A stretch of DNA of 43,097 nt, from positions 691,927 to 735,023 of the forward strand of contig CP070742.1 of NCBI GenBank assembly GCA_020348065.1, read 5' to 3'. The DNA comes from Candidatus Zixiibacteriota bacterium (GTDB lineage: Bacteria > Zixibacteria > MSB-5A5 > UBA10806). The stretch's first letter is position 1. Every line of letters begins with the position of its first letter. Under the pieces are notes generated by a model. The model saw only the letters and a program-made list of their open reading frames with translations, made no database searches and had not been told where the DNA came from. The position numbers and the translations under genes were made by a program. This document shows positions 424-18,260 of this stretch, piece by piece.

Positions 424-1041
424 ATGGATTCCAAAAAATCGAAATTTCCCGAGGCCAGCGATAAAGAACTTATGGAATTGATTCAGGCGGGCGATGATAA
501 AGCGTTCCGGGAACTGGTCATCCGTTTCCAGGACAGGCTGATGAATTTCGTGGGACGGATCGTTACCGATAAAGAGACCTCCGAAGAGATAGTACAGGAG
601 ACATTTTTAAGGATCTTCAATCAAAAGATGAGTTACACGCCGCAGTATGCCGTATCCACCTGGATTTATACTATCGCGTTGAATTTGAGTCGATCCGAAT
701 TGCGAAAAAGGAAATTGCGGAGGTTTTTGAGCCTCGATTTCCTGAAAGAGGAATCCGATTTTGAGCTGGCCGATTCGGCCGTACAAACGATGAGCGGTCT
801 GGCGCCGGTTCTCCAAAAGGCCATAGAGAAGCTTCCTCAGGAATATAAGACGGCTTTTATTCTTTGCGATATCCAGAGGTTGCCGTATCAGCAGATCGCG
901 GAAGTAATGAGAGTCCCGGTTGGAACGGTGAAGTCGAGGATCAACCGGGCAAGATCGATATTGAGGGAAAAACTTAAACCATACAAGGAGTTGCAGCATG
1001 AACTGTCGAGGGGTATCCCGCAGACTATCAGCCTATTTTGA
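424..1041 (+). CDS. rpoE: ECF-type RNA polymerase sigma factor (sigma-70 family, group IV)
   Basis: This 205-residue protein has the two-domain layout of ECF sigma factors. Region 2 is at about residues 25-95 (FRELVIRFQDRLMNFVG, then EEIVQETFLRIF). Region 4 is at about 137-190 (LPQEYKTAFILCDIQ, then the helix-turn-helix around VPVGTVKSRINRAR). ECF factors direct core polymerase to GGAAC-type promoters and are normally held inactive by a cognate anti-sigma factor. That partner is encoded immediately downstream with a 44-base overlap, which implies translational coupling. The third gene is an HtrA-like protein, so the unit resembles rpoE-rse-mucD/degP envelope-stress operons. The first few residues are charged and unstructured; the ATG at 424 follows GAGAAGGA. 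Confidence 0.93.
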   Translation: MDSKKSKFPEASDKELMELIQAGDDKAFRELVIRFQDRLMNFVGRIVTDKETSEEIVQETFLRIFNQKMSYTPQYAVSTWIYTIALNLSRSELRKRKLRRFLSLDFLKEESDFELADSAVQTMSGLAPVLQKAIEKLPQEYKTAFILCDIQRLPYQQIAEVMRVPVGTVKSRINRARSILREKLKPYKELQHELSRGIPQTISLF

Positions 1042-1576
1042 CGGGCAATTAAGCCCCGCCATCAGGCAGTCGGTCGAGGATCATTTAAAAGGGTGCCTCT
1101 TGTGCCGGCGAAAGCTGGCTGAAATTGAGGCCATCGTCAGGGTAACTCATGATTTGTCGTCTTTGAGAGTCTCTGACGGTTTTACGGATCGCGTAATCGC
1201 CGTGACTAAATCAATTCCCATGAAAAAGGAGGCGTTCGGGAAAATAAGTTACAGATTTGGATTGGCGTCGGCGGCCTTTATAACCGCCGCGGCCGTGATA
1301 TTTTTTCTTTTCGGACCTACGACCACTACCGTTGATAATATTGCCGACACTAAAACCGATATTAAATCCGCCCTGGAACTGCCGGGAGAGTCGGAAACTC
1401 TCGATTTTGCCGATGATCCCAGCGTTATCGTATGGTCGGTGCCGGTTCCGGAGGATATCCTTGCCAGGGACAGGATGCTTGATGACAGCCTGCTTCTGGC
1501 GGATACGTCCTCAAAGATCGACCAGTTTGTTCTTCCCGAGATCGATAGAGGTTTAAAAGTAAATAAAGAGTTTTAA
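998..1576 (+). CDS. membrane anti-sigma factor with zinc-finger (ZAS) domain
   Basis: This 192-residue protein has the zinc-binding anti-sigma signature H29-x3-C33-x2-C36 in its first 40 residues, a feature of RsrA/ChrR-like inhibitors that clamp the sigma factor. A single transmembrane helix follows at about residues 88-106 (RFGLASAAFITAAAVIFFLF), then an 85-residue acidic extracytoplasmic part without a recognised domain. The arrangement fits a transmembrane anti-sigma factor that releases its sigma on an envelope signal, usually by regulated proteolysis. The ATG has a strong AAGGAG inside the end of the sigma gene, so the two are co-translated. The outer domain lacks cysteines. The partner assignment rests on gene order. 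Confidence 0.88.
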   Translation: MNCRGVSRRLSAYFDGQLSPAIRQSVEDHLKGCLLCRRKLAEIEAIVRVTHDLSSLRVSDGFTDRVIAVTKSIPMKKEAFGKISYRFGLASAAFITAAAVIFFLFGPTTTTVDNIADTKTDIKSALELPGESETLDFADDPSVIVWSVPVPEDILARDRMLDDSLLLADTSSKIDQFVLPEIDRGLKVNKEF

Positions 1577-1593
1577 AACAAGGGAGGGCCGCC

Positions 1594-2784
1594 GTGCATA
1601 ATTTTAAAATTTTTGTATCGGTTATAATAGCGACCTTCATCCTGAGCGGGAGTTCCGCTGATGCCGGGTTATCGGGATCTCTGGATAAGGAATTGACGTC
1701 ACTTATCGAGAAAACGGAACCGTATCTGGTGACGGTGAAAGGCGACGGCACCTGGAGGAATCTGATTGCCACCGGCATAGTCTACAACGAAGAGGGATAT
1801 GTAATAACCTCATCGCCGGCATATATGGCCGCCGATTTCGAAGTTACCTTCGCGAACGGTGAATCATACGATGCCGAACCGGTGGGGGTGGATCACGAAA
1901 CCGGGCTGGCGCTTTTGAGGATTAAAGGGAAACGTCAATTCCAGGTCCCGGCATGGGGATCTCCATCAAAATTGGATAAGGGCTCATGGATATTATTTGT
2001 AGGCAATTCATACGACACCCCTTCGTCCGTCAACATCGGTACCTATAAGGGCAAAGACGATGAAGGATTGCTGGAGTTGAACCTGAATGTCAATCCGGGA
2101 TCATCGGGGGGAGCCGTTTTAAACACCGATGGGGAGGTTATCGGCATTCTGATTGCCGTTGAATTCTCGCCTGGTACAAAAAAATTCTTTCGGCATAACA
2201 TGAAATTTGGCGATTACTATTTATCCAAAGATAGGGGGAGATCAGGAGAAACGGCTCTGGCGCTGCCGATTGAGCAGGCCAGGGATATTGTCGAGCAGTT
2301 GATCGAACATGGCGAGATAAAGAGGGGTTTTCTGGGGATCAACCAGAAAAATCTTACCGACGAGCAGAAACGGGAAAACAATATTGACGGTGGGATAATG
2401 GTTACAGATGTGGTCGATGATTCACCTGCAGACAAGGCGGGCCTGCGCGAGGATGACATTATAGTTAAGATCGACGGCAAATCGATAGAGGGGATAGGCG
2501 ATCTATACTCTACAATCCGATCACACAAGCCGGGGGATAGGGTAAACATCACTTATATCAGGGATGGAAAAACGAAAAGGATCGATGTTGAACTGGGGGA
2601 ATCAGAACGCGATTATTTTCTGGGAAGCCTGGATTTCGACGGAATTCTCCCTAAGCTAAAGATAGATAACAAATTAGATTTACCCCGTATGGAGAACCTG
2701 GAAGAGGAATTGCAGAGTTTGAGAGATGAACTGGAGAAGCTGCGTTACCAATTGGACGGGTTAAAAGACGACTTAAAGAAATAG
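1594..2784 (+). CDS. HtrA/DegP-like PDZ protein, probably catalytically inactive
   Basis: This 396-residue secreted protein starts at GTG after AGGGAGG and has a signal peptide of about 24 residues. It has a trypsin-like fold of the HtrA family (about 40-195), one PDZ domain (about 243-335, with GFLGI and SPADKAGLREDDIIVKIDG) and a C-terminal coiled coil (366-395). In DegP the triad His lies in GYVVTNNHV and the Asp in SDIAL. The aligned stretches here are GYVITSSPAY (Pro75 where His should be) and TGLALL (Gly104 for Asp). The serine loop NPGSSGGAV with Ser171 is intact. The family recognises unfolded envelope proteins. Loss of two triad residues suggests a sensor, chaperone or scaffold rather than a protease. 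It is the last gene of the sigma/anti-sigma unit and is followed by a terminator. Confidence 0.85.
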   Translation: MHNFKIFVSVIIATFILSGSSADAGLSGSLDKELTSLIEKTEPYLVTVKGDGTWRNLIATGIVYNEEGYVITSSPAYMAADFEVTFANGESYDAEPVGVDHETGLALLRIKGKRQFQVPAWGSPSKLDKGSWILFVGNSYDTPSSVNIGTYKGKDDEGLLELNLNVNPGSSGGAVLNTDGEVIGILIAVEFSPGTKKFFRHNMKFGDYYLSKDRGRSGETALALPIEQARDIVEQLIEHGEIKRGFLGINQKNLTDEQKRENNIDGGIMVTDVVDDSPADKAGLREDDIIVKIDGKSIEGIGDLYSTIRSHKPGDRVNITYIRDGKTKRIDVELGESERDYFLGSLDFDGILPKLKIDNKLDLPRMENLEEELQSLRDELEKLRYQLDGLKDDLKK

Positions 2785-2981: not shown

Positions 2982-3104
2982 ACCTGGATGGCATAACGTT
3001 TTTTAGTCAAAGGAGTTGCAGGGAAAACCGAGTAAAAAATCAGGAGGCGGATTTTTAGGTGATAAATAGAGTGTTTGTTAATCATTGATAGAAGGGGTTT
3101 TTTG

Positions 3105-3506
3105 ATGAAATTATTCAAGAGGAATGAGAACAGGGGTTTCACGATGGTAGAGCTTGCCATCGTGCTGGTAATTCTTGCGATCCTGGCGGCCATAGCGGTC
3201 CCGCTGTATCTGCAATATGTTGAGAGCGCCAGGGCTGGCGAGGCGCAGGAGGCGATTGCGGCTATTATGGCAGCCGCCAAGGTTCAGCATGCTGAAACGG
3301 GGCAATGGCCGACTGATATGCGCCAGCTCCACAGACTTCAGCTTGACAGGTTAACGGAGGAGCGCTGGCGGTTTATCATTATTCCGGGTACACATGGTAT
3401 CCAGAGCGTCCAGGCAACTTCGACCGGTCAGATGCCGGGTGGCGCGGGCAAGATCGTGCGTTTCAACGCCCAAGAGGGTAAATGGAACGGGTACGGCTTC
3501 GATTGA
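3105..3506 (+). CDS. pilA: type IV major pilin (prepilin)
   Basis: This 133-residue prepilin has a short basic leader, MKLFKRNENRG, and a processing site G11/F12 in the class III signal FTMVELAIVLVIL. Glu16 becomes the canonical Glu5 of the mature protein. The hydrophobic alpha-1 helix (12-35) is followed by a small globular domain with no cysteine, so the disulfide-bonded D-region of neisserial or pseudomonad pilins is absent. The ATG at 3105 is chosen because GAAGGGG lies 7 bases before it; a TTG 30 bases upstream would give an unusual leader. First place in the pilus operon and a long leader suggest it is the most abundant subunit. At 122 mature residues it is a small pilin. It could instead be a pseudopilin, but the full pilus gene set downstream favours PilA. 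Confidence 0.88.
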   Translation: MKLFKRNENRGFTMVELAIVLVILAILAAIAVPLYLQYVESARAGEAQEAIAAIMAAAKVQHAETGQWPTDMRQLHRLQLDRLTEERWRFIIIPGTHGIQSVQATSTGQMPGGAGKIVRFNAQEGKWNGYGFD

Positions 3507-3540
3507 TAAACTGTAAACCTTTCAACATTGGATTGAAGTA

Positions 3541-4632
3541 GTGGAAAGTTATAAGGCTACCGGCGGAGTTGTCTCCGCCGAGAAGAAGATACTCACTATA
3601 GATGAACTTCTAAAGTTTACCAAGGAGCAGGGAGCCTCGGATTTGCATCTGTCCGAGGGATCGACTCCCATGATTCGCATAGACGGGGTGATGCACAAAC
3701 TGGATTTGCCCGGGTTTGACAAAGAAGGAATCAGGTCTCTTTTGCTCTCTGCGATGGATAACGATCAGAGGAAAAGATTTGAAGAGCAATACGAAATAGA
3801 TTTTGCCAAAGAGATTGACGACAACACGAGATTCAGGTGTAACATTTACAAGCAGATCCAGGGATTTGGCGGCGCTTTTCGTACAATTCCCGCTGACATT
3901 CTTTCATTTGAGGAATTAAATTTGCCTGACATATTGAAAAGGTTGTCTCTGGTGGAACGTGGATTGGTTCTAATTACGGGGCCAACCGGTTCCGGGAAAA
4001 CCACCACTCTTGCCACCATGGTGGACTGGATCAACGAGCATAAGGAATGTCACGTTATAACTATTGAGGACCCGGTCGAGTATTTCCAGACCAGCCGTCA
4101 TTCTCTTATAAATCAGCGGGAACTGGGTTCCTGCACGCATTCTTTTGTTAATGCTTTAAGAGCCGCTCTTCGTGAGGACCCTGACGTGATTCTGGTGGGA
4201 GAGATGAGAGATCTGGAGACTATTTCTCTGGCCTTAACCGCCGCGGAAACCGGTCATCTCGTTCTTTCCACATTGCATACATCATCGGCGACCAAGACGA
4301 TCGACAGGATTATCGATATATTTCCGGCGGAGCAGAAAGCCCAGGTAAGATCGATGCTGGCGGAGTCGCTGCAGGCGGTGATTGCGCAGACCCTTCTCCC
4401 GCATAAGGTCAAGGGTCGTATTCCGGCTTTCGAGATTATGATCGCCAATGTGGCGGTGAGAAATCTCATTCGCGAGGATAAAATCTATCAGATACCGTCA
4501 ATTATTCAGGCCGGGGGAAAATCGGGAATGCAGTCTCTGGATCAGAACCTGTTAAACCTTGTGGCGGAGGGCAAGATCGAGCGTTCGATCGCGGCTCAAA
4601 GGGCGGATAATCCCAAGCTGTTTCTGGATTAG
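3541..4632 (+). CDS. pilT: pilus retraction ATPase PilT (first copy)
   Basis: This 363-residue hexameric secretion ATPase powers pilus depolymerisation from the inner membrane base. Visible are Walker A GPTGSGKTTT (147-156), the Asp box around ITIEDPVEY, Walker B DPDVILVGEMRD, the His box GHLVLSTLHT and the PilT-typical AVRNLIRED in the C-terminal domain, which resembles the AIRNLIRE retraction motif. It lacks the N1 domain and Cys motif of PilB. GTG at 3541 is the start, since no ATG precedes the conserved N-terminus. It sits between the pilin and the minor pilins, an unusual place for pilT, which in many genomes is unlinked. A second PilT lies at 38538. Confidence 0.93.
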   Translation: MESYKATGGVVSAEKKILTIDELLKFTKEQGASDLHLSEGSTPMIRIDGVMHKLDLPGFDKEGIRSLLLSAMDNDQRKRFEEQYEIDFAKEIDDNTRFRCNIYKQIQGFGGAFRTIPADILSFEELNLPDILKRLSLVERGLVLITGPTGSGKTTTLATMVDWINEHKECHVITIEDPVEYFQTSRHSLINQRELGSCTHSFVNALRAALREDPDVILVGEMRDLETISLALTAAETGHLVLSTLHTSSATKTIDRIIDIFPAEQKAQVRSMLAESLQAVIAQTLLPHKVKGRIPAFEIMIANVAVRNLIREDKIYQIPSIIQAGGKSGMQSLDQNLLNLVAEGKIERSIAAQRADNPKLFLD

Positions 4633-4642
4633 GATGATATCG

Positions 4643-5080
4643 ATGGCTGGCGATTCCGATAAAAATAAATACGGGGATCAAAAGGGCCTAACATTAATAG
4701 AGATTATGGTCGGTTTGTTGGTTATAGGCATCTCGATTCTGGCCATGTATATAATGTTTATCAATGGCCGGGAGATGATTACGGAGCAGTATCATCGGCG
4801 CATAGCTCTGGAGAAAGCCAGGGCCTTGATGGAGGATATGCAGTACAGCAGCCGCAAGCTGGGCAGTGTCCCCACGTCGTTCCGTGGAGCCGAAGAGGAT
4901 ACGCTGGTTGCCGGAGAAGGCCGCGATCCCATTTTTGCCGAGCGCACTGTCACCGTAGAACACAGCCCGCAAATAGATATAAGAACCGGGTATCCCTACT
5001 ACAGCGAGGTCAGCGTTGTTTATGAATGGGAGGAGTTGTCGGGCAGGGAATACCGCGTTGAATTGAGGAGCGCCTTTTGA
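4643..5080 (+). CDS. minor pilin, PilV-like prepilin
   Basis: The mature part begins after KG15 with LTLIEIMVGLLVIGISIL, a class III prepilin signal with Glu at mature position 5. The following ~110 residues form a small globular domain with no recognised motif (EKARALMEDMQYSSR, then a beta-rich C-terminus). Length is 145 residues from ATG 4643, which has AGGA 8 bases upstream; ATG 4634 is an alternative. The gene starts 10 bases after pilT and precedes a PilW-like gene, the usual order of minor pilins that prime assembly and form the pilus tip. The PilV label rests on order and prepilin signature, not on specific residues. Confidence 0.75.
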   Translation: MAGDSDKNKYGDQKGLTLIEIMVGLLVIGISILAMYIMFINGREMITEQYHRRIALEKARALMEDMQYSSRKLGSVPTSFRGAEEDTLVAGEGRDPIFAERTVTVEHSPQIDIRTGYPYYSEVSVVYEWEELSGREYRVELRSAF

Positions 5081-5093
5081 CCGGGAGTTAATT

Positions 5094-5684
5094 ATGATCG
5101 AAGACTTAAAAATAAGGCTATCGAAGAATTCCGGATTGACGTTAGTTGAAATCGTGGTAGCTATGGCGATCTCCGCCATTGTCTTCATCGGAATGCTGGC
5201 GACCTACGCGGAGGGTGTGCGGTATACGCGGCAGAATTCGAGCATGATGACGCTATATAACGAGGGTAAAGCCGCGTTGGAGATAATGGGCGGGTGGATC
5301 AGGCAGGCGGCCCGCATTCGCATATCATCTTATGGAGGCGTATCGAATGCCCGTCTGGAACTTAATTATAATGATCCCTGGGGAGGCGGGGACGCCGAAT
5401 TTTATTTTTCCGAAGCGAGCAATATCCTGAAATGGAACGATAGAACAAAGAGAAGCAGAAGACTCAATATGACTCTTCTGCCGATGCTGGATGTTGATAC
5501 CGGTCCGTACAAAGAGCCTTATTTAAAAGTGAAGGATTGCAGATTCACTCCCCTGGATCATTTAGGAATTCCCAGCCCCTATCTTGAAGGTTACTCTCTT
5601 ATAAAAATTGAACTGGTTCTGGAGGATAGCCGGGGGGACACCCTTTACTTATACTCGGTTCACTCGAAAAGAAATAAGCTTTAA
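5094..5684 (+). CDS. minor pilin, PilW-like prepilin
   Basis: This 196-residue prepilin has processing site G14/L15 in SGLTLVEIVVAMAISAIVF and Glu at mature position 5. The region after the helix (YAEGVRYTRQNSSMM, then ALEIMGGWIRQAARI) resembles the PilW/GspJ family, which packs at the tip of the pilus priming complex, and is followed by a beta-rich domain. ATG 5094 has GGGAG upstream and lies 13 bases after the PilV-like gene. No cysteine pair typical of tip adhesins is seen (one Cys only). The family-level call is good and the exact subunit equivalence is inferred. Confidence 0.75.
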   Translation: MIEDLKIRLSKNSGLTLVEIVVAMAISAIVFIGMLATYAEGVRYTRQNSSMMTLYNEGKAALEIMGGWIRQAARIRISSYGGVSNARLELNYNDPWGGGDAEFYFSEASNILKWNDRTKRSRRLNMTLLPMLDVDTGPYKEPYLKVKDCRFTPLDHLGIPSPYLEGYSLIKIELVLEDSRGDTLYLYSVHSKRNKL

Positions 5685-5713
5685 ACAAGGATTTTTATAA
5701 CCTGGAGGCCGCG

Positions 5714-7132
5714 ATGAAGCAATTTAAAGGCAGAAAAGAACAGGGCAGTGTCCTGGTGATGGCGGTAGTCCTCTCATTCGCGATGTTTATTATGGGCCTG
5801 GGTTTTTTAACCAGCGTCGATTATTTCGAAAATTCAGTCAGCGATGAAATAGCATTCGCACAGAATATATACGCGCTCAGTTACATAACAAAGATTACGA
5901 ATACTATCGTGAAGACCGGCGGCCTTTACCCCGGCGCATATGGCGCGTGGAATCCATATTTCAACGATAATGTCTATTACAGGTCCTACGTGGACTTCAC
6001 GGGCAATATCAATGACGGTTTTTTCTACGGAACACTGCGCGGATATTATGTATACGCGCAAGCCAAATCGACATATTACGGCGCCGATTATTTTATTGGA
6101 CGAACCAGCGCGACTTATGAGATTCTGGAGACGTTCGCGGATTACCTGTATCTTTCGATTATCGAAGAGGACCCGGTGAGAAACGAGCGGATCCGTTTCT
6201 GGACCCCGGATACTCTTGACGGTAAGGTTCATTCCAATGACACCATACATATTCATTCGGTTTATAACAGTCCACGTTTCATGAAAAAGACCACCTCCTG
6301 CGCTCCCTATATCGTCCCGTTCGACCATCAGGCGACATTCGATGAGGGTTTCTTTCCCAACGCCGATTCGATATATTTTCCCGACCAGGCGGATGAAATA
6401 AGAATCAGATCTCTCCGGAGGAATTTCGGGACCTTCAATCCCGATTCGGTTACGGAGTTGACTTTTCACGGCCGCGAGATAATTGTCAGGTATTGCGGCC
6501 CCGGTGGACCGCCGCACGAGGATTCTCTGGTATGTCGTCCGAGTCGCATATCCGCATCTAACGATAGAATAATTGTTTCGGGGGGCGATGCCGCGTTGTT
6601 CGTTCACGGAAAAGTGTATGTTAAAGCCAACCGTGGGAATCCAGATCTAATGGATACGACTTTTCGATCAATTGGCTTTGAGGGAAGGCTTACTATAGCC
6701 AGTTCGGATACCATGATTATATACGACAACCTGATATACAAGAACGCCAATGATGACAATTCCGTCCCTACCAATATAATAGACTGCCTGGGGCTGATAT
6801 CGGAATCGGCTATAATGGTGGGAGACAGCGTGGGAGATACCGTTTACATTAACGCGGCGCTGGCGTCGTTAGGCGGGACGATTTCGGTGCGGGATATATA
6901 TGATTACGGAACAGTTTCCGATCCCAACGACAACGAGAAACAATCGTTGTTCATTTACGGTTCGCTGGCTATGAAAAACCGGGGAATAGTGCACACCACG
7001 CATAACGGCTGGGGCGACAGGGGATTTATCGAAAAAGACTATCATTACGATACGCGCTTCCAGATGGATCCTCCGCCATATTTTATCCGCGCCAGTGGAC
7101 ATAACACCATTTATATGGAGTCCGGAAATTAG
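5714..7132 (+). CDS. large pilus-associated protein with PilX/GspK-like N-terminus
   Basis: This 472-residue protein begins with a basic leader, MKQFKGRKEQG, and a hydrophobic stretch, SVLVMAVVLSFAMFIMGLGF, like PilX/GspK proteins. Mature position 5 is Met rather than Glu, as in GspK, the tip pseudopilin. The remaining ~440 residues are rich in Tyr, Asp and Asn, with features such as TPDTLDGKVHSNDTIHIHS suggesting a secreted beta-helical or beta-sandwich domain (a DUF4900-like call is possible but unverified). Its position after PilV- and PilW-like genes and before pilM suggests the tip subunit of the minor pilin complex, here much larger than the ~200 residues of classical PilX. It may act as adhesin. 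ATG has GGAGG 5 bases upstream. Confidence 0.65.
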   Translation: MKQFKGRKEQGSVLVMAVVLSFAMFIMGLGFLTSVDYFENSVSDEIAFAQNIYALSYITKITNTIVKTGGLYPGAYGAWNPYFNDNVYYRSYVDFTGNINDGFFYGTLRGYYVYAQAKSTYYGADYFIGRTSATYEILETFADYLYLSIIEEDPVRNERIRFWTPDTLDGKVHSNDTIHIHSVYNSPRFMKKTTSCAPYIVPFDHQATFDEGFFPNADSIYFPDQADEIRIRSLRRNFGTFNPDSVTELTFHGREIIVRYCGPGGPPHEDSLVCRPSRISASNDRIIVSGGDAALFVHGKVYVKANRGNPDLMDTTFRSIGFEGRLTIASSDTMIIYDNLIYKNANDDNSVPTNIIDCLGLISESAIMVGDSVGDTVYINAALASLGGTISVRDIYDYGTVSDPNDNEKQSLFIYGSLAMKNRGIVHTTHNGWGDRGFIEKDYHYDTRFQMDPPPYFIRASGHNTIYMESGN

Positions 7133-7181
7133 GATTGATGAATTGACGAATATTTTTGTTGCCGTGTAAAGGAAGGAACTT

Positions 7182-8234
7182 ATGGCAAAATCTGTTTTTG
7201 GTCTCGATATAGGATCTTATTCTGTTAAGCTCGTAGAATTGGATAAAGATGACAGCCGGTACAGGTTGAAGAATTACGCCATAGCCGAGCTTTACGGCGA
7301 TAACGAGGAATACGACATCGAGGGACCGAGTTACAGCAGGCAATCGGCTGCCGTGAGAAGCTGTTTCAGGCAGGTGAAATTGAATCCCAGGCGGATAAAA
7401 AACCTCAATTGTTCTATTGGCGGCCAGGATGTTGCGGTAAAGCAGATAAAGTCTATATCGTTAAGCGCGGAGGAGTTGGAATCGTCTTTAACCTTCGAAG
7501 CCAGAAAACATCTTCCTCTTGAAGATACCGAGGCTATTCTGGATTACCAGATCCTGTCGGACAGCGCCGCCGCTTCTGAAATCGATATTCTCATGGTGGC
7601 CACCACCAAGAAGGCTTTTGATTATCATATCAAGCTGTTAAGGGAACTTGGCGTGAGGCCCAGGACATTTGATGCCGAATGCACGTCGCTGGTAAATTCT
7701 TATTTTTTATCTCACGGTAAACCGGTGGGCGACAGGGCCCTGATATTTCTCGATATTGGCGCCAAATTTTCGACCCTTACGGTTTTCTGCGACAAAGGGA
7801 TGTTATTTTCTCGCGATATCGCGATCGGCGGATATAAGATAACAGATGATATAAGGAATATACAGAACATTGAATATCCGGCCGCCGAGGAGATGAAAAG
7901 GGCCAAGGGTATGGGAGCTTTTCTGTGCGACGAGAGCGAGGATGGAGCCTCCATAAGAATAGCGAGAAGGAAAGCGATGGATTCTCTCGTGGATGAGATA
8001 AGGAGGTCATTGAGATACTACACAAAGGAAACCGGCATCAGGGAGTTCGAAAAGATTCTGGTATGCGGCGGCAGCGCTCTTATGACAAATCTTAATTCCC
8101 ACCTCGCGCAGGCGTTATCAATGAATGTTGAAATTTATAATCCTTTTGAGCATTTTACCGTACCTCCCGGATTCAACGAATCATTGGGTACGCAACTTGC
8201 GACAGCCTGTGGACTTGCCATGAGGGAGGATTGA
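7182..8234 (+). CDS. pilM: type IV pilus assembly protein PilM
   Basis: This 350-residue actin-like ATPase of the FtsA fold is the cytoplasmic ring component that binds the N-terminal tail of PilN. Seen are the phosphate-1 loop VFGLDIGSYSVKLVEL, the middle motif LIFLDIGAKFSTLTVF, and the adenosine-binding ILVCGGSALMTNL near the C-terminus. Length equals that of known PilMs. ATG follows GGAAGGAA. The stop overlaps the pilN start by one base (TGATG), the usual tight pilMN coupling. Confidence 0.93.
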   Translation: MAKSVFGLDIGSYSVKLVELDKDDSRYRLKNYAIAELYGDNEEYDIEGPSYSRQSAAVRSCFRQVKLNPRRIKNLNCSIGGQDVAVKQIKSISLSAEELESSLTFEARKHLPLEDTEAILDYQILSDSAAASEIDILMVATTKKAFDYHIKLLRELGVRPRTFDAECTSLVNSYFLSHGKPVGDRALIFLDIGAKFSTLTVFCDKGMLFSRDIAIGGYKITDDIRNIQNIEYPAAEEMKRAKGMGAFLCDESEDGASIRIARRKAMDSLVDEIRRSLRYYTKETGIREFEKILVCGGSALMTNLNSHLAQALSMNVEIYNPFEHFTVPPGFNESLGTQLATACGLAMRED

Positions 8235-8806
8235 TGAAAGCGGAGTATTATTCGATAAACTTAAATAAAGCCTCAAACCGTCTTGATCAGCTCGAGCAAA
8301 TGCAGAAGCGGAGAAAAGCGGTTTCTGTTGCGGCTTTTGAGGTGGTGATGGTGCTGATCGCGGCCGCGGTAGGGTATCGGTCTTATAGAACCGACCTGAA
8401 AATAGACCGTATGCGAAAGGAAGTAGCTGCTATCGAGGAAAAAATAACCAGACTGGAATCCTCTACCGATTACCTGTCTCCCGAAGATATTTTTACGCTT
8501 TCGGAGGTAGCTACCAGCAGGCTGGTCTGGTCGGAAAAAATATCGGTTCTGGGAAATATCCTTCCCAAGGACGTGGCCATAACGGAGCTTGTATATGATG
8601 ACAGGCTGCAGGTTTTTTTGATAAAGGGAATTTCCAAGGTGCGGCCCGGATTGAAAGATCTCGATTTGGTAGTGGCCATCATCGACGTTGTTGAATCGAA
8701 CGAGGATTTCAGTTCGGATTTTTCGGAGATTAAATTCCAGTCCTCTCAAAGGGTAAAACGGGAAGAGCAGGAGATGGTGAAGTTTGAGATCGCCTGCCTG
8801 ATATAA
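8234..8806 (+). CDS. pilN: type IV pilus assembly protein PilN
   Basis: This 190-residue bitopic inner-membrane protein has a short cytoplasmic tail whose first residues (MKAEYYSINLNKAS) include the INLN-type motif that docks into PilM. The transmembrane helix is at about 28-47, followed by a coiled coil (KIDRMRKEVAAIEEKITRL) and a ferredoxin-like periplasmic domain. It forms the alignment subcomplex with PilO. ATG at 8234 shares its A with the pilM stop. Confidence 0.9.
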   Translation: MKAEYYSINLNKASNRLDQLEQMQKRRKAVSVAAFEVVMVLIAAAVGYRSYRTDLKIDRMRKEVAAIEEKITRLESSTDYLSPEDIFTLSEVATSRLVWSEKISVLGNILPKDVAITELVYDDRLQVFLIKGISKVRPGLKDLDLVVAIIDVVESNEDFSSDFSEIKFQSSQRVKREEQEMVKFEIACLI

Positions 8807-8825
8807 ACTCGGAATTGGAGACTTG

Positions 8826-9434
8826 ATGAAGAATAATTTGATTGTTTTGGTTTTAACATTGATATTGCTGGGCGGCGCTTTTTTCTATTATCAGAAAGAT
8901 ATCGTGCCGCAACCGGACGAGATTAAAAGGTTGAATCTGGAGATTGAGGATAAAAACAAGCAGTTGCTGGCAGCCCAGATTCTGGCGGAAAAAAGGGAAG
9001 GAATTACCGCCTTGATAAAAAACAACCTTGTAAATAGTCCGTCCGATACCCTTACGGAAAAGTCCTCCATACCTTTCTTGCGATATCTCACGGCGACCAT
9101 GGACAGGCTCGGAATAAGACTCGTGGCGCTGACCCCTCTGGATGTAATCGGTACGGACGATATGTATACATACGAGAAGAAGGAGTATATCGAGGTTCCC
9201 TATGAGTTGAAGATCATCGCCAGTTACGAGGAGTTCGGCAGATTTCTCGATATTCTGGAGAAATCTCCTCATCTTATAAAAGTCGTGTCGTTTTCTCTTT
9301 CGAACGACGTTGAGAGATCGAGTTTTATGGGGGAGATTAGCGGAAGGCCTAATCAGCATCCCATTAATCTGCAGATCAGCACATTAGCTATTGTGAAAGC
9401 GAGTTATAGAGGTGAATTGGGAGAGTTTAATTAG
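8826..9434 (+). CDS. pilO: type IV pilus assembly protein PilO
   Basis: This 203-residue-class protein (202 from ATG 8826, after TTGGAG) has an N-terminal transmembrane helix (about 4-22), a coiled coil (KRLNLEIEDKNKQLLAAQIL) and a PilO ferredoxin-like domain with the family hallmark YEEFGRFLDILEKSPHLIKV. It heterodimerises with PilN in the periplasm and contacts PilP and the secretin. Its end overlaps the next gene by 23 bases. Confidence 0.9.
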   Translation: MKNNLIVLVLTLILLGGAFFYYQKDIVPQPDEIKRLNLEIEDKNKQLLAAQILAEKREGITALIKNNLVNSPSDTLTEKSSIPFLRYLTATMDRLGIRLVALTPLDVIGTDDMYTYEKKEYIEVPYELKIIASYEEFGRFLDILEKSPHLIKVVSFSLSNDVERSSFMGEISGRPNQHPINLQISTLAIVKASYRGELGEFN

Positions 9435-9972
9435 AGGGTTAGCCATTTTGGCTGCCTTAGGGCTTGTAGTGTTTTTGGGATTTTCTGTTTATAAAACCTA
9501 TTACGGTATTCCTCAGAATTTTTCAGAGACTATTGAAGATTCGGCTGTTACACTGGACGCCAACAATGACCTCAGGGCCACACTGGACACCCTCGAAACC
9601 GTCTGGGAAAACAGGCAGAATTTCTGGTTTAACCTGAGTCAGGATCCGTTGTTTCTGGGGAGGGTTATTGAGGATTTCGCTTATGATACCCGGGGTGGGG
9701 AAGCCGAGGAAGAGAGCGCAATCAGGCTCTCGGCAACCGTCGTCGACGATAATCCCAAAGCGATCATTAAGTATCATGGAAAGAGCTATGTGGTTCAGGC
9801 GGGGGATTATATCGGGGAAACATACCGCGTGGTAAAAATCGAGGAAAGACAGGTTGTGCTGGATAACAAAGGTAAAAGAATGGTATTAATGAGCAAACCG
9901 GTATCCGGCTTTGATGAGAAAAAATTGGAATCGGAGTATTCCAATAATACAAATCCGGGGGAGTACAATTAA
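9412..9972 (+). CDS. pilP: PilP-like alignment protein with transmembrane anchor
   Basis: This 186-residue protein occupies the pilP slot. It has an N-terminal helix (about 8-27), a ~60-residue linker and a C-terminal small beta-domain (IIKYHGKSYVVQAGDYIG, then YRVVKIEERQVVLDNKGKRM) of the PilP/GspC homology-region type that binds the secretin N0 domain. Classical PilP is a lipoprotein. Here there is no lipobox and the anchor is a membrane helix, as in GspC. GTG 9412 inside pilO is the start; no ATG precedes the helix. The assignment rests on position and domain type. Confidence 0.75.
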   Translation: MNWESLIRGLAILAALGLVVFLGFSVYKTYYGIPQNFSETIEDSAVTLDANNDLRATLDTLETVWENRQNFWFNLSQDPLFLGRVIEDFAYDTRGGEAEEESAIRLSATVVDDNPKAIIKYHGKSYVVQAGDYIGETYRVVKIEERQVVLDNKGKRMVLMSKPVSGFDEKKLESEYSNNTNPGEYN

Positions 9973-10011
9973 TAATCTTATCGGTTTTGGTTCAATTTTA
10001 AGGAGGAAATC

Positions 10012-11550
10012 TTGTTTAGAGCGTCCATGAGGGGTGTGAAACTGTATTTATTAACGGCGTTGATTATAATTATGTCGGCCGGGATATCTCTTGCTCAGAG
10101 ACCTACAAGGGGAGAATCTGCTGCGGAAGAGATGCAGGGCAGGCTTGACAAAACCGTCACACTGGATGCTGATGACGCTTTTCTGCCGTCGATACTCAGT
10201 ATCCTCGCCGAAAAATCCGGATTTAATATTGTTACGGGTCCGGGGGTGAATACCAAAGAGAGGATTTCAGTTCATTTAAAAGACACTCCTATAAGAGAAG
10301 CGATAAATCTTGTTGTAAGGGCCGCGGGTTTATCTTACGAGACTGTCGGGAACTCGTTTCTCGTAGCGGATGCCGAAGCTTTGGAGACGGAAATCGGTCT
10401 TTCACCCAGCGTAATTCATCTTCAATATTCCAACGCTTCCGAAATCAAGGAGCTGTTGAAAGATTTAACCGAAAAAGTTCAGGTTGATACGGCCGGCAAC
10501 AGGATTTTGATCATGGCCAGTCCGAAGGTGACGGCGGATATCGCGGAAATAGTCAGGCAGGTGGATAAGCCGGCCAATCAGGTTCTTCTCGAAGCCAGGT
10601 TAATTGAGATCGCCACCGACGATCTTGACGAGTACGGAATCGACTGGGAGAACCTCTCCAGTTTTACCACTATTCTGGCGGAATCGCCTCTTGTCAAGGA
10701 CGCGGACGGTCAGACCGACGGCACGTCCAGGGCTCCGAGCCAAAACGATTTTGGAGGAGACCTTCCGGATCTGGGTGAACTGCCGGAGAAATATTCTTTT
10801 GAAAAAATAGAGGGATTCGATAATGTATTTAATTTTTCCCGACAGCTGAACGCTTTTGATATAACGCTTGATTTTCTTATGAAAAGAAATAAAGCCAAGG
10901 TTCTTGCTCACGCCCAGCTGACGACCATGAATAATCGTGAGGCGACGATTCTGATAGGAGAAACGTTGAGATTCGCGGTTTCTTCGAGAGAAAACGCCAT
11001 TATCGTTACCGATTCGGTGGGCATAAAACTGCATATCACGCCGACCATAAATACCGACGGGTATATAACCGTAAGGGTTAATCCGGAGGTATCATCGATT
11101 ACGGAACTGGTTCAGGGATTATATCCCCGAAAGAAAGTACGTACCGCCAGCACAACGGTTCTGGTAAAGGACGGCGAAAGGATATTTATCGGCGGGTTGT
11201 TGTCGGTTGACGACTCGGAGGTGGAGTACAAGATGCCGCTTTTGGCCAATCTGCCAATAGTAGGCAAATTCTTTACACATTATTATCAATCTACCAGGAA
11301 AACCGACCTTCTTATTCAGATTACGCCCAGGATCGTGAGGGAAGACGTGAGCTATTCCGACGCGCGAAACCTGACCAGCCAGGGAAATTTAATATTAGAC
11401 AAAGGCGACACTGTTGATATAGGTGAAATTATTCAAACGGAACTGGAAGGAATCGATGAGGTGAAGTCCGACATCGGCGAATTGGAAGGCGAATTGGATA
11501 AGATTAAGGTTCCTTTAAGCGAGAGATTGGAAGAGCAGGAATATAAATAA
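10012..11550 (+). CDS. pilQ: outer-membrane secretin PilQ
   Basis: This 512-residue secretin forms the outer-membrane gate for the pilus fibre. Order: signal peptide (cleavage near residue 29, SLAQ), N0/STN domain (about 47-122, HLKDTPIREAINLVVRAAG), one N1/KH domain (about 132-187), then the secretin barrel (about 190-465). The barrel contains VNPEVSSI, the TTVLVKDGERIFIGGLL block and the closing PLLANLPIVGKFF. An acidic insert at about 220-270 and a coiled tail (480-512) flank it. It is shorter than proteobacterial PilQ (~700) because AMIN peptidoglycan-binding domains are absent, so anchoring to the wall must differ. The start is TTG with an ideal AGGAGG 5 bases away. Confidence 0.93.
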   Translation: MFRASMRGVKLYLLTALIIIMSAGISLAQRPTRGESAAEEMQGRLDKTVTLDADDAFLPSILSILAEKSGFNIVTGPGVNTKERISVHLKDTPIREAINLVVRAAGLSYETVGNSFLVADAEALETEIGLSPSVIHLQYSNASEIKELLKDLTEKVQVDTAGNRILIMASPKVTADIAEIVRQVDKPANQVLLEARLIEIATDDLDEYGIDWENLSSFTTILAESPLVKDADGQTDGTSRAPSQNDFGGDLPDLGELPEKYSFEKIEGFDNVFNFSRQLNAFDITLDFLMKRNKAKVLAHAQLTTMNNREATILIGETLRFAVSSRENAIIVTDSVGIKLHITPTINTDGYITVRVNPEVSSITELVQGLYPRKKVRTASTTVLVKDGERIFIGGLLSVDDSEVEYKMPLLANLPIVGKFFTHYYQSTRKTDLLIQITPRIVREDVSYSDARNLTSQGNLILDKGDTVDIGEIIQTELEGIDEVKSDIGELEGELDKIKVPLSERLEEQEYK

Positions 11551-11578
11551 TAAATTAACTCCTTTTAAGGGGGAGACA

Positions 11579-14395
11579 ATGATATCTAAAGAAGGGATTT
11601 TAGAAACAATTGCGTCAGGTTTATTGATCTCGGCGCTTTTCATGCTGCTTTTAATCGGCTGCGACAAGAGGAAGCCGATGGATACCGAGGAACTGAACGA
11701 GGAACAGACTGCGGCTCTGGTCGATGATATTTTTATTTTTCTCAATCCTCCCCAGATTAATTTGCCCACTTCCAGCGCAGTTGACACCTCCAGGGTTACA
11801 ATTGCGGTTGTGGACTCGGAGGGCGTTGGCGTTTCCGGCGTCAGAGTGAGCGTTACGCGCAATCCCCAGATCGGCTATTTAACCGCACCCGACACCACAG
11901 ACACAACCGGGGTTACAAATATATTATTCATAGCGCAGCCCGGCGTTTACGGGGTAACCAATATTCGCGTCGCCGTCAACAGGCCGGACGATACGCTGAT
12001 CAGGACCAGAACTTTATATATTACCGGGCCCTCGGATTATTCTCTTTCGATCGATCACTGGCCGACGGTCCCGAAATTGATTGACCGCTATGGCGATCCC
12101 TATGCCATAAACGCGACGCTGGTGGATACTACCGGCACCGGCGTGCCGGGACATCCGGTCCAGTTCTCGATCCTGAATAACGTTGGAAGGCTGGTGGATA
12201 CTTCCAGCACGGGAGATCCCGTGACCAATAATGAGGGTATCGTCTCCGTTCTGTTTTATAATACGGCGGCGGACGAGCAGGACAACCCGCCGTTCGCATT
12301 GCTTCAGGCAGTCTCGACGACCCCCGGAGATTCTATTATCTATCTGGCGGCGCTGGATACCGTCAGCCTTTTGCCGGTGTCAAACACGATAACGCTGGAA
12401 GCCGAGGATCCCACGGTATATGGAGACGGTTCGGATTCGACAACAATCCGGGCCATTTTGCTTGACACCTATGGTCATGGTATTCAGGGAGATACGGTCA
12501 GGTTCCGAAATCAGCCGTTTGACGGTTCGCTTAGCGGAACGGCTGTGACCAACCAGAACGGCATTGCCACGACGGCATACCATCCGTTCCCCGGGCATCT
12601 CGGAGTCACAAGGATTTTCTCCGAATATAGACTGAATACCATTCACCAAGCCGTTGATTCTACTGATGTTGAGATTCTGCCCGTAAGAGCCATCGGTTTT
12701 ATTACGGTTTCTCTGCAGAAACAGAATGTGGTTGCCGACGGCGCGGATTCCACGCAGCTGTTTATAACGGTTCAGGACTCCAGCGGCGGTCTTATCGCTG
12801 ATGGTACGACGATTTTCCTGGAGCATACCGGAACCGGATTTTTAACTCCCGCTCAAACTTCAACGACCGACGGGCAGGCCACATCTGTTTTAAGAGCCCC
12901 CGCCAATATTGTCGGTTCTCCGGATAAAGACTCGGTATTTGTCTGGGGGCGTGCCAATGACACGCTGATTGTAGCGGATACGGCGGTGGTAACCTATGTT
13001 CCGGGTCCGGTTGACGAGCTGGTTTTTATAAGACCGGAGTCGACCGTTATTTTAATCGCCGGTTCAGCCGCAACTGAAACCGTTCAGGTGGAGGCGACGG
13101 ACGCCAACGGCAACCCGGTCGCCAACGGCACGCAGATCAGCTTCAGAAATGAAATAATAACGTCTACTCTGGCTCCATCTTCTTCTCCTACCATGAACGG
13201 CATAGCAACATCAATTTATTTGGTAGGTTCCGGGACGGGCGACGATAACGTGCGCGCGTTTGTACCGCATCCCAGTAATCCCAACGATACCATATGGACG
13301 GTGCAGCCGGTCGTATTTCGCTGCCTGTCATCCGATGCCACGACCCTGAAACTGTCCGCAAGCCAGAGCAGTATTGTAGTCGGCGGCGCTTCCTGCCAGA
13401 TATTGGCGACCCTCGAGGACGCTTTTGGAAATCCTCTTTCCGAGGGCTACAGGGTTGCTTTTCAGATAATTACGGCAAATGGAACTCAGGGTACGTCCGA
13501 GTGGCCCTCTTTCAGGACAGAATCGGGAGCGTATCATGATACCATCGATACAAATATAAACGGGCAGGCTGTCACTCAGATCTATTCCGGCACGGTTTCC
13601 GGGGCGGTATCAATTAAAGCCTGCACCATTTCGGATACGCTTTTCGTATGCGACGAGAAATCGCTTATAACGATATCATCCGGCCCCCCTCACACCGTTC
13701 TTGTTTCTCATAACAATATTGCCGAAGCCGCCGGTTCCAATTCGCCGGAAAGATTTGTTCAGGTTGGCGCGGAGGTAATAGACACTTTCGCCAACCCGGT
13801 TGAGTATGGAACGGCGGTATACTTTACATTGATTCCCAACGACGTCGCAGAGGTTGAAGGCAATTCAATTACGGGAGCTTCCAGGTTGCCATACCATCCC
13901 GATTCGGCGGAAGGCTGGGCATTTTCGCGCGTTCTTTTTGGATGTTACGCCGCGAACGATTCTTTACAGGTTGTAGCGTTGTCGGCGGGTGATTCGGTGA
14001 CCGTAGGCGATACATCTCAAGTGTTCGTACTGCCGATTTACGATCCAATCATATCGCTTATGGCCGATCCTGCCAATTTATGGTGTGTAGATGATCAATG
14101 TACCTCCACGGACGAGTCTGATATCACCGCGCTTTTGCAGGACGGCGGATTCTGTCCCGTAGAAAACGGTCTGATCGTGTTTAGCGCTTTAGTTGCGGGA
14201 TCTATAATAGGCCCGACCAGCGTCTATACAGACTCGACCGGTATGGCGGAAACCATGTATCAGATCAAGGGATGCGAGATTCCCACTCCGCCGAGCCAGG
14301 TTCCGCAAATTGAGACAACGGTTCGGGCTGTATTATTCGGATATCCCGATGTTGAGGCGGAAGTGGCCTTAATCTGCTCTCGCCCCCAATTTTGA
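11579..14395 (+). CDS. multi-domain bacterial Ig-like (Big_1/invasin-type) lipoprotein
   Basis: This 938-residue exported protein has a lipobox LLIGC with Cys28 as the lipidation site. About eight tandem Ig-like repeats of 90-110 residues follow. Each opens with a strand such as VTIAVVDSEGVGVSGVRVSV, ITALLQDGG or VQVEATDANGNPVANGTQI, and ends with a G-x-A-x-T or similar turn. Such repeats in invasin/intimin extend adhesive rods. Residue 29 after the Cys is Asp, which in E. coli would hold a lipoprotein in the inner membrane; whether that rule applies here is unknown. It sits between pilQ and pilB with 28- and 22-base gaps, so it is co-expressed with the secretin. It could be a secretin-associated structural rod, a pilotin-like factor or a surface adhesin. 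Extra Cys residues cluster in the last repeat. Confidence 0.8.
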   Translation: MISKEGILETIASGLLISALFMLLLIGCDKRKPMDTEELNEEQTAALVDDIFIFLNPPQINLPTSSAVDTSRVTIAVVDSEGVGVSGVRVSVTRNPQIGYLTAPDTTDTTGVTNILFIAQPGVYGVTNIRVAVNRPDDTLIRTRTLYITGPSDYSLSIDHWPTVPKLIDRYGDPYAINATLVDTTGTGVPGHPVQFSILNNVGRLVDTSSTGDPVTNNEGIVSVLFYNTAADEQDNPPFALLQAVSTTPGDSIIYLAALDTVSLLPVSNTITLEAEDPTVYGDGSDSTTIRAILLDTYGHGIQGDTVRFRNQPFDGSLSGTAVTNQNGIATTAYHPFPGHLGVTRIFSEYRLNTIHQAVDSTDVEILPVRAIGFITVSLQKQNVVADGADSTQLFITVQDSSGGLIADGTTIFLEHTGTGFLTPAQTSTTDGQATSVLRAPANIVGSPDKDSVFVWGRANDTLIVADTAVVTYVPGPVDELVFIRPESTVILIAGSAATETVQVEATDANGNPVANGTQISFRNEIITSTLAPSSSPTMNGIATSIYLVGSGTGDDNVRAFVPHPSNPNDTIWTVQPVVFRCLSSDATTLKLSASQSSIVVGGASCQILATLEDAFGNPLSEGYRVAFQIITANGTQGTSEWPSFRTESGAYHDTIDTNINGQAVTQIYSGTVSGAVSIKACTISDTLFVCDEKSLITISSGPPHTVLVSHNNIAEAAGSNSPERFVQVGAEVIDTFANPVEYGTAVYFTLIPNDVAEVEGNSITGASRLPYHPDSAEGWAFSRVLFGCYAANDSLQVVALSAGDSVTVGDTSQVFVLPIYDPIISLMADPANLWCVDDQCTSTDESDITALLQDGGFCPVENGLIVFSALVAGSIIGPTSVYTDSTGMAETMYQIKGCEIPTPPSQVPQIETTVRAVLFGYPDVEAEVALICSRPQF

Positions 14396-14417
14396 GAGAT
14401 TGTCTGGAGAATATTGA

Positions 14418-16121
14418 ATGGAAAAACTTGGTGAGTTGCTTTTAAGAGAAGAAAAAATATCCGAGGAGAAACTTCAAAGGGCTTTAGAAAAACAGAAGGA
14501 AAACGGCAAAAGACTTGGCGAGGTTTTGCTGGCGGAGGGGATGATCGACGAAGAAAGCCTCGCCAGAGCTATTTCCGAGCAGCTCAATATTCCGTTTATT
14601 ACGGCTGAAGATCTGATCAAAATCGACAAGGAAGCCCTGGAGTATATCCCCGAATTTTTCGCGCGCGAGTATCACTGCCTGGCGTTTGCGAGAGATGAGG
14701 GACAGCTGTATGTTGTCATGGTTGATCCCGAGGATATAATCGTTATTGACAACCTTCAGAAGATAACATCGCAGCATATAGTCGTCAATATAGGCGTTCA
14801 GAAGGTGATTGACGAGGCCTTAGAACGTCATTACAAAGAACACAGGGCGACCGGCGAGGTGACCGAGGCGTTATCGGGGCTGGATTTCGTGGTCTCCACC
14901 GAAGGGGCCGAGCTGGACGATATAGATATCAATCAGCTCAAGAAGGAACTGGACGACGCGCCCATAGTGAAGCTTGTCAATCTGATAATTTCCGACGCTA
15001 TCAAAGGCAGGGCCACCGACATTCATATCGAACCGCTCTTTGACGCGCTTCTGGTGAGATACAGGATTGACGGCGCTTTGCAGGAGGTGATGACAGCCCC
15101 AATTAAATCCGCCACGGCTATTATTTCCAGAATAAAGGTTATGTCCAATCTCAATATCGCGGAACGCCGTTTGCCGCAGGACGGGCGGATTTCGATAAAA
15201 TCTCCCGACCGGGAGGTTGACGTCCGTGTCTCAATTATACCCACTGTCAAAGGGGAAAAAGCGGTACTGAGGCTTCTCGATAAGAAGGGATTCGAGTTTA
15301 CCCTTGGAAATCTCGGTTTTGACAGCGATATGCTGGAGATATTCCGGAAGTGGATATTGATGCCCTACGGCATGGTTATAGTATCGGGTCCCACCGGCTG
15401 CGGAAAATCAACCACCCTGCATGCGGCGCTCAAGGAAATTCAAAACGAGGAAGACAATATCGTGACCGTCGAAGATCCCGTCGAATATCAACTGGATAAA
15501 ATAAACCAGGTCGCGGTTGCCGATTCTATCGGGCTTACGTTCGGTTCCTCTCTGCGCGCGATTTTGAGGCAGGATCCCGATAAGGTTCTTATCGGGGAGA
15601 TAAGAGACAAGGAAACATCTGATATCGCCATAAAGTTCGCTTTGACCGGCCATCTGGTTTTCACGACTCTTCATGCCAACGACGCCCCTTCGACAATTAC
15701 AAGGCTGCTTGATATCGGCGTGCCGCGCTATCTCGCGGGATCGGTGACGAACCTGGTAATGGCTCAGAGGCTTGTCAGGACTATCTGCGACGGATGCAAG
15801 GAAGAATACATACCAACTCCCGAGATATTACGGGGATTGAATATGGATCCGGATAAATATAGGGATTCTACCTTCTACAGGGGGAAAGGTTGTGTCCGTT
15901 GCAGGAATACCGGATTCTTCGGACGGACGGCTTTATTTGAGCTTCTTGAAATGAAACTTCCTGTCAGGAAGGTTATATTTGACGGTGGAAACGAAGATGA
16001 TCTGAGAATAACGGCTAAGGAAACGGGAATGGTTTCTCTGAGGGAGGCCGGAATAAGGAAAATTCTCAATGGAACGGTTTCGGCTGATGAAGTTGTCAAA
16101 AAGACCATCGACGAAGACTGA
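14418..16121 (+). CDS. pilB: pilus assembly ATPase PilB (first copy)
   Basis: This 567-residue extension ATPase has an N-terminal MshEN domain in which two 24-residue motifs (3-26 and 32-55, separated by 5 residues) match the cyclic-di-GMP-binding pattern. The second is near perfect (Arg32-LG..., Gly41, Gln55). A linker, N2 domain and C-terminal RecA-like domain follow, with Walker A GPTGCGKSTT (324-333), Asp box VTVEDPVEYQ, Walker B DPDKVLIGEIRD and His box GHLVFTTLHAND. A tetracysteine zinc site CDGC...CVRC lies near the C-terminus. It polymerises pilin together with PilC, which is the next gene. ATG follows GGAG. Coordinate control by cyclic-di-GMP is inferred from the motif only. Confidence 0.95.
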   Translation: MEKLGELLLREEKISEEKLQRALEKQKENGKRLGEVLLAEGMIDEESLARAISEQLNIPFITAEDLIKIDKEALEYIPEFFAREYHCLAFARDEGQLYVVMVDPEDIIVIDNLQKITSQHIVVNIGVQKVIDEALERHYKEHRATGEVTEALSGLDFVVSTEGAELDDIDINQLKKELDDAPIVKLVNLIISDAIKGRATDIHIEPLFDALLVRYRIDGALQEVMTAPIKSATAIISRIKVMSNLNIAERRLPQDGRISIKSPDREVDVRVSIIPTVKGEKAVLRLLDKKGFEFTLGNLGFDSDMLEIFRKWILMPYGMVIVSGPTGCGKSTTLHAALKEIQNEEDNIVTVEDPVEYQLDKINQVAVADSIGLTFGSSLRAILRQDPDKVLIGEIRDKETSDIAIKFALTGHLVFTTLHANDAPSTITRLLDIGVPRYLAGSVTNLVMAQRLVRTICDGCKEEYIPTPEILRGLNMDPDKYRDSTFYRGKGCVRCRNTGFFGRTALFELLEMKLPVRKVIFDGGNEDDLRITAKETGMVSLREAGIRKILNGTVSADEVVKKTIDED

Positions 16122-16192
16122 AATCACAAGGGATTTAGCTGGCGAAACGCAGATACAACGCGGGTCGCATAATTTGTAAGGAAGATTGTTGA

Positions 16193-18255: not shown

Positions 18256-18260
18256 ATATT

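Follow-up and report, generated by a model that had tools for sequence, protein, structure and literature searches.

A catalytically degenerate HtrA-like protein encoded behind an ECF sigma factor and its anti-sigma factor in Zixibacteria: a possible non-proteolytic variant of the sigma-E switch

A three-gene unit from a Candidatus Zixiibacteriota bacterium encodes an extracytoplasmic function (ECF) sigma factor, an anti-sigma factor and an HtrA-like protein in which two of the three catalytic residues are replaced. The unit occupies positions 424-2784 of the window, i.e., the whole stretch of 43,097 nt that was analysed (GCA_020348065.1, contig CP070742.1, 691,927-735,023, forward strand; the genome is a single contig of 3.74 Mb), and all features described here lie on the forward strand of that window. 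The product of the first gene (424-1041, 205 amino acids) contains both sigma region 2 (Pfam Sigma70_r2, 2e-11) and region 4 (Sigma70_r4_2, 2e-17), as is characteristic of ECF sigma factors. The second gene (998-1576, 192 amino acids) shares a 44-base overlap with the first. Its HxxxCxxC zinc finger (zf-HC2, 2e-8, residues 3-37), situated beside an ECF gene, places the product among the zinc-associated anti-sigma factors, with His29, Cys33 and Cys36 being conserved in at least 90% of 32 orthologues. A hydrophobic segment at residues 87-105 probably forms a single transmembrane (TM) segment, and the part following it, which ends in VNKEF (1559-1573), is presumed to be periplasmic. The third gene (1594-2784, 396 amino acids, GTG start) encodes the HtrA-like protein (Trypsin_2, 4e-21; PDZ_2, 3e-20). 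A promoter-like element lies in front of the unit at 372-400, consisting of GGAAC (372-376), a 17-base spacer and GTATAAT (394-400). Open reading frames (ORFs) and Pfam domains agree with the three-gene unit as it was delimited in the first-pass annotation, which had been made from the letters of the sequence.

The HtrA-like protein has the domain order of the HtrA/Deg serine proteases, a trypsin-like domain followed by a PDZ domain, in the Pfam matches as well as in an AlphaFold2 model (mean predicted local distance difference test score, pLDDT, 83.4; predicted template modelling score, pTM, 0.74). The best structural match of the model is chain 8kic (Z 33.0, root-mean-square deviation (rmsd) 2.5, 287 residues). 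It also matches E. coli DegQ (3stj; Z 32.9, rmsd 2.9) and DegS with a YQF peptide (3gdv; Z 29.4), and the match to DegQ, DegP and DegS spans both the protease and the PDZ domain. The His-Asp-Ser triad of these proteases is broken. In phmmer alignments to DegQ/DegP-type chains, Pro75 (in GYVITSSPAY; codon 1816-1818) aligns with the catalytic His and Gly104 (in HETGLALL; codon 1903-1905) with the catalytic Asp, and the catalytic Ser is kept as Ser171 (GSSGG within PGSSGG; codon 2104-2106). When the protein is aligned with two relatives from Zixibacteria and 54 HtrA homologues from elsewhere, His at column 75 and Asp at column 104 are at least 90% conserved and Ser171 is invariant. The triad is not simply shifted, since there is no His within residues 70-80 and since Asp100, which lies close to Gly104 together with His101, occupies a separate column in which Asp is kept in 91% of the HtrA-like members. 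A displacement of the triad to neighbouring residues, the objection that had been raised alongside the original reading, is ruled out by the phmmer alignments, the member columns and the 54-homologue alignment. Judged by its residues, the window protein is an HtrA homologue and no HtrA protease, and cleavage of the anti-sigma factor by it seems unlikely with two of the three triad residues gone.

Besides the triad, several other parts of the protein can be compared with known HtrA proteins. A single PDZ stretch was found by Pfam, which corresponds to the DegS type, and its residues 245-249, G-F-L-G-I (2326-2340), form what we take to be the carboxylate-binding loop on the model of HtrA PDZ structures. 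Where DegP has a second PDZ domain, the window protein carries a predicted C-terminal coiled coil (residues 365-395; 2686-2778). Its helix 366-395 has high confidence in the AlphaFold2 model, which is not the case for the preceding residues 343-362, and Leu occurs within it at columns 383 (82% of members) and 387 (78%). A putative N-terminal signal sequence can be recognized by eye. Columns 155 and 161 were matched by eye to the activation cluster of DegP and DegS, as far as the available text of the published work describes it. Instead of the Arg (77% of members) and Gln (78%) that prevail at these columns, the window protein carries Asp and Glu, and the allosteric part may therefore differ among members. 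The fold, the numbering of the replaced residues and the coiled coil had all been described correctly in the first-pass annotation.

The gene set is more than a chance arrangement, as it recurs throughout the phylum. The sample comprised 132 Zixibacteria genomes, all of one class. Anti-sigma loci were taken from 115 of them; the remaining 17, where a strong match to the anti-sigma factor was missing, were left out. One locus (L216 of genome G024) was excluded as a unit because of a weak anti-sigma match and a different gene behind it, which leaves orthologous anti-sigma loci in 114 of the 132 genomes. The sigma gene is present in all but three of these 114 (a contig end truncates L029 and L214, and no sigma gene was found at L155). 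The C-terminus of the anti-sigma factor is readable in 111 (L139, L156 and L213 are cut), and an HtrA-like gene follows in 94 of the 111 readable units and is absent in 17. Among the 94, the closest relative of the window's genome (G001) was counted by hand, its HtrA-like gene being split by an assembly gap: the two pieces lie 2.1 Mb apart (C1:77949-78413 and 2187366-2188166), with a run of N, which is a scaffold or assembly artefact. A profile of 19 HtrA-like members matched at 1e-127 to 1e-136 in three positive-control genomes and at 1.5e-64 or weaker in the 17 gene-less genomes and in G027. The gene has therefore been lost rather than relocated in these 17, and the candidate explanation that it had moved elsewhere was rejected, as the profile search found a pseudo-HtrA elsewhere in 0/17. 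HtrA frames of about 460 amino acids or longer do occur in G027 and in 16 of the 17 (the exception being G038). Among other HtrA loci, inspected with up to 3.5 kb of flank as a by-product and without a targeted search of other phyla, an ECF or anti-sigma match was found in 0/77. The only HtrA-like gene found in family f19 (G120:C31:276124-277257) has a TAG inside the profile match, which may point to a truncated start or to decay.

Loss of the triad is a family-wide trend, and the pseudo-protease character that had been ascribed to the window protein by its residues extends to 89 of the 92 readable members, which are not His-Asp-Ser. All three triad residues are found in 3 members, two in 5, one in 28 and none in 56. 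The three intact triads (L053, L060 and L065) all belong to family f7. The check proposed earlier, whether the substitutions are conserved in homologues near ECF genes, bears out the loss of the triad, which is widespread; the exact Pro/Gly pair is not conserved. The order of loss differs among lineages: a close relative (L040) keeps the His and has Gly in place of Asp, 4/8 members of families f3 and f15 keep Asp and Ser with the His gone, and the large family f9 has lost the Ser. In the His column, 14 residue types occur, His among them. On a tree built without the triad columns, the backbone of which is weakly supported, the three triad columns change 31, 26 and 29 times, compared with a domain median of 24, and Gly172 (of the GG pair) and Gly248 (in the PDZ loop) change 0 times. 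At least two switches between active and dead forms are needed on this tree, in which case the triad would have been lost once, early, and regained in f7. It seems likelier, tentatively, that there were several losses.

In contrast to the triad, the PDZ loop is kept: Gly248 is present in 92/92 readable members, and position 246 is Tyr, Phe or Trp in 91/92. Moreover, the ratio of nonsynonymous to synonymous substitution rates (dN/dS) ranges from 0.058 to 0.216 in all 12 close pairs of triad-less genes that were tried. The kept loop and the low ratios argue for a maintained pseudoprotease family that extends across the phylum. A decaying pseudogene is rejected by the same dN/dS values, and an error in the window sequence by the relatives that lack the triad as well. 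In family f11 (L063 and L064), the HtrA-like proteins are 712 and 665 amino acids long, with apparently three PDZ repeats and Asp at the His column.

What the PDZ domain may bind is suggested by the anti-sigma factor itself. Where the HtrA-like gene follows, 90 of 94 anti-sigma factors end in Tyr (68) or Phe (22); where it is absent, 7 of 17 have one of these two residues at the end (Fisher, 2.9e-7). As a control, 30 zf-HC2 loci were drawn from the same genomes and five were dropped as the unit's own anti-sigma factor. Of the remaining 25 proteins 5 end in Phe or Tyr (5/19 with a TM-like segment, 0/6 without). The difference between units with the gene and this control is again large (Fisher, 1.9e-14), with the reservation that both tests overstate independence because the species are related. 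For the remaining long ORFs in these stretches, Phe or Tyr is the last residue in 21/176 cases. The tail is not imposed by overlap with the start of the next gene, a candidate that was rejected: each of the four codons for Phe and Tyr occurs, and an aromatic end is seen irrespective of spacing (overlap, 31/32; up to 5 bases, 22/22; 6-30 bases, 19/20; 31-400 bases, 16/18; the start of the longest ORF being taken as the start of the next gene). Such an end resembles that of an outer-membrane protein (OMP), as illustrated by the Omp85-type proteins of the window's genome, which end in F, F, F, W and F (5 of 11 matches examined). The PDZ domains of DegS and AlgW are described as binding OMP-type C-termini in the available text of two reports (PMC8545111, PMC11642142). 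At the level of sequence, a PDZ protein and a PDZ-type tail co-occur in these units, and the tail decays where the HtrA-like gene is absent.

The element upstream of the sigma gene is conserved as well. GGAAC-N17/18-GTA was found in 106 of 108 stretches (spacer 17 in 96, spacer 18 in 10), and shuffled sequence leads to an expectation of 4.0 of 108 for spacers 15-20. It is missing at L068 and at L216, the locus that was excluded as a unit. Within the window, the element at 372-396 is the sole match of this form, and as 1.6 matches are expected by chance, the evidence for a promoter is its conservation. The element is thus promoter-like and conserved, and probably autoregulatory. Classical ECF -10 forms (GTC, TCNNA and others) were found behind GGAAC in at most 6/108 at any one spacing. 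In the strict form, 21 sites were counted in 129 genomes as against 2 in the control, and 14 of the 21 belong to the unit itself as its promoter, judged from their position or from the sigma gene that follows. In two genomes of the window's family (G000 and G001), the element also precedes a DegP-like HtrA with intact triad motifs, 74 bases upstream, and the gene of signal peptidase I. In G003, the element before the DegP-like HtrA, of which the His and Asp motifs were seen, has a looser form. A small secreted-looking protein without Pfam match lies behind the element in G000 and G002, which is a weaker case. Further strict matches stand in two f19 genomes before the gene of a carbon-nitrogen hydrolase (L359 and L360; Pfam on L359 only) and at L349 before that of ribosome recycling factor. 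Near-identical GGAACTT...GTATGA strings at L316, L322 and L369, in two genomes, look like repeat copies and not like promoters.

The neighbourhood of the unit gives an indication of the signal. A TamB-like gene lies downstream on the same strand in 79 of the 103 stretches with at least 1 kb of downstream sequence (the excluded locus L216 is one of the 24 misses), and for two of the stretches Pfam bears out both TamB and POTRA. In the window, the corresponding set is found at 17511-23724 and comprises a CMD-domain protein directly before TamB (17511-18254; Pfam CMD, 3e-12), TamB itself (18261-21794; 5e-27) and a TamA/BamA-like Omp85 protein with POTRA domains (21751-23724; Omp85, 7e-46; POTRA, 3e-23). 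Between the unit and this set lies a type IV pilus region (3075-17446), with pilins, T2SSE ATPases, PilM, a secretin and T2SSF assigned by Pfam and NCBIfam for part of the ORFs. Among the neighbourhoods examined, those of the window's order are the only ones in which the unit is followed by pilus genes. The signal that was proposed earlier, misfolded pilus or outer-membrane proteins, is therefore narrowed: the TamB neighbourhood points to outer-membrane protein assembly rather than to pili. Within the pilus region, between the secretin and a T2SSE ATPase, a protein with bacterial Ig-like (Big_1/invasin) domains is encoded at 11579-14395.

The reading that we favour, with moderate confidence, is that of an autoregulated envelope-stress switch resembling the sigma-E system, with the PDZ domain of the pseudoprotease gripping the OMP-like tail of the anti-sigma factor. 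The ECF factor would be held by the zinc-finger, single-TM anti-sigma factor, and the exported HtrA-like protein, presumably no longer able to cut, would bind the presumably periplasmic C-terminus of the latter, which would mimic an OMP end (Phe/Tyr-COOH). Competitors for the PDZ domain would be unfolded OMPs whose aromatic ends are exposed. This competition would alter the fate of the anti-sigma factor, either by sigma release or by exposing the anti-sigma factor to another protease. Once free, the sigma factor would transcribe the unit that encodes it and, within the family of the window, the genes of a DegP and of signal peptidase I as well. Only tentatively can this be extended to a switch operating phylum-wide, in which the built-in OMP mimic of the anti-sigma factor is read by a dead protease, its own tail and unfolded OMP tails compete for one PDZ groove, sensing takes place without proteolysis, and the triad has been lost piecemeal in several lineages.

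Several observations weigh against this switch. Binding of the tail by the PDZ domain is something that we infer from the sequences. In four of the 94 gene-carrying units the last residue is Pro (three) or Ser (one), and the seven aromatic ends among the 17 gene-less units are all Tyr; these gene-less units do not differ significantly from the control zf-HC2 proteins (p 0.17). In that control, 4/25 anti-sigma factors end in FAS[SAT][FY] and one in RASF, with no HtrA neighbour found in their stretches. The presence of the gene changes 5 times on the tree. In 5 independent pairs, the tail changed the same way as the gene 2.9 times on average, the other way 0.0 times and showed no difference 2.1 times, which is not significant. 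A comparison by branch length does favour the link between tail and gene, with 3 tail losses over 3.0 units of branch where the gene is absent and 2 over 59.3 where it is present (p 0.001). This test rests on 5 losses and on a parsimony reconstruction in which the tail must also be gained 6 times and the gene regained once. Family f7 retains His-Asp-Ser, therefore cutting may still occur there. Regarding the regulon, the looser promoter form (GGAACT-N16/17-GTANNA) has 18 sites in the window's own genome against 10 in a reversed control, so that most single sites of this form mean little, and the element precedes 0/19 DegP-like genes of other families, the gene of the window's family being the only one of 20 tested that has it. 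As to the sequences involved, three of the four deviating tails (L193, L200, L201 and L204) end in NYL[VI][IS]P and one in RVYRS, and the four control anti-sigma factors (L113, L116, L131 and L134; 257-259 amino acids) end in FASSY, FASSF, FASTF and FASAY, with no HtrA match in the stretch.

Other roles can be envisaged for the pseudoprotease. It is unlikely, but the best surviving alternative, that it acts as a chaperone or effector of the response, a regulon product that binds unfolded proteins and does not regulate the anti-sigma factor. An operon-encoded HtrA of this effector kind is MucD in Pseudomonas, the PDZ domain and coiled coil would be suited to client binding, and sharing an autoregulatory promoter with sigma and anti-sigma factor is what an effector could do as well; this explanation leaves the aromatic tail of the anti-sigma factor unexplained, and likewise its decay in units without the gene. 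Less probable still, the pseudo-HtrA could serve as a regulatory subunit of an intact HtrA, joining or activating it, and the intact enzyme would then cut an anti-sigma factor held by its tail. Such a role would be compatible with PDZ-tail binding and has a parallel in MamO, which promotes MamE-dependent proteolysis according to the available text of PMC4794232. In the window's genome there are three His-Asp-Ser HtrAs, one of them behind the same promoter element, and M50 (site-2-type) peptidases. Against hetero-oligomers, the C-terminal coiled coil suggests that the protein forms an oligomer of its own. That the tail is read by another PDZ protein, e.g., a DegP-like HtrA or a tail-specific protease, its link with the pseudo-HtrA being coincidental, fits the DegP-like HtrAs of the window's genome and the Tyr ends kept without the gene, but is improbable as the tail decays although 16/17 gene-less genomes keep HtrA frames of full length. 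The switch based on PDZ-tail binding remains the reading that we prefer.

Compared with the first-pass annotation, the interpretation is partly supported. The idea of a PDZ sensor linked to the anti-sigma factor gains from the kept PDZ loop and the Phe/Tyr tail, and signalling without cutting is what the pseudo-HtrA may do. The finding itself is real and larger than first described, being a phylum-wide pseudoprotease family with a strong hint of its ligand. The promoter element offers a regulon probe for a little-studied phylum, and the three f7 units with full triads provide a natural positive control for activity.

Among known systems, the sigE locus of Mycobacterium tuberculosis has the same order of sigma factor, anti-sigma factor and HtrA. 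In the available text of PMC10027907, the genes rseA-htrA-tatB follow sigE, which is not co-transcribed with rseA, and HtrA is an essential serine protease. The unit differs from that locus in its lost triad and in its wide occurrence among Zixibacteria. MamO of magnetotactic bacteria is likewise a pseudoprotease with an HtrA fold, and degenerate triads arose more than once in those bacteria; points of difference are the metal that MamO binds, its transporter domain and its promotion of proteolysis by MamE (PMC4794232, in its available text). Membership of the MamO family was rejected, as the NCBIfam MamO model gave 26.5 bits at a cut-off of 800. In the proposed model, the pseudo-HtrA would resemble RseB/MucB as a non-proteolytic periplasmic partner of an anti-sigma factor, a family that was not found among the Pfam and NCBIfam matches listed for the three unit proteins. 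Among the literature matches listed, none shows a sigma/anti-sigma operon that includes a pseudo-HtrA, or an anti-sigma factor with a PDZ-ligand tail, which is no proof of novelty with subscription papers mostly uncovered.

The RpoE-RseA-DegS and AlgU-MucA-AlgW systems share with the unit an ECF factor, a membrane anti-sigma factor and a periplasmic HtrA with one PDZ domain, as well as a promoter of the GGAAC type, which is their consensus, and an envelope protease among the likely targets. Unlike in these systems, the triad is lost, the anti-sigma factor is of the zinc-finger kind and carries the OMP-like C-terminus itself, and the pseudo-HtrA, with its C-terminal coiled coil, is encoded directly behind sigma and anti-sigma factor. 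In the known sigma-E-type switches, the OMP signal is passed to an active HtrA protease, whereas here the same fold is under strong selection across the phylum, mostly without catalytic residues, beside an anti-sigma factor with a C-terminus of the type bound by HtrA PDZ domains. The switch as proposed is a variant of these sigma-E systems. Should the tail be the ligand, it would be a non-proteolytic version of the sigma-E sensor, and the units with an intact triad, with one, two or three residues lost and with the gene lost would form a natural series for an enzyme becoming a receptor.

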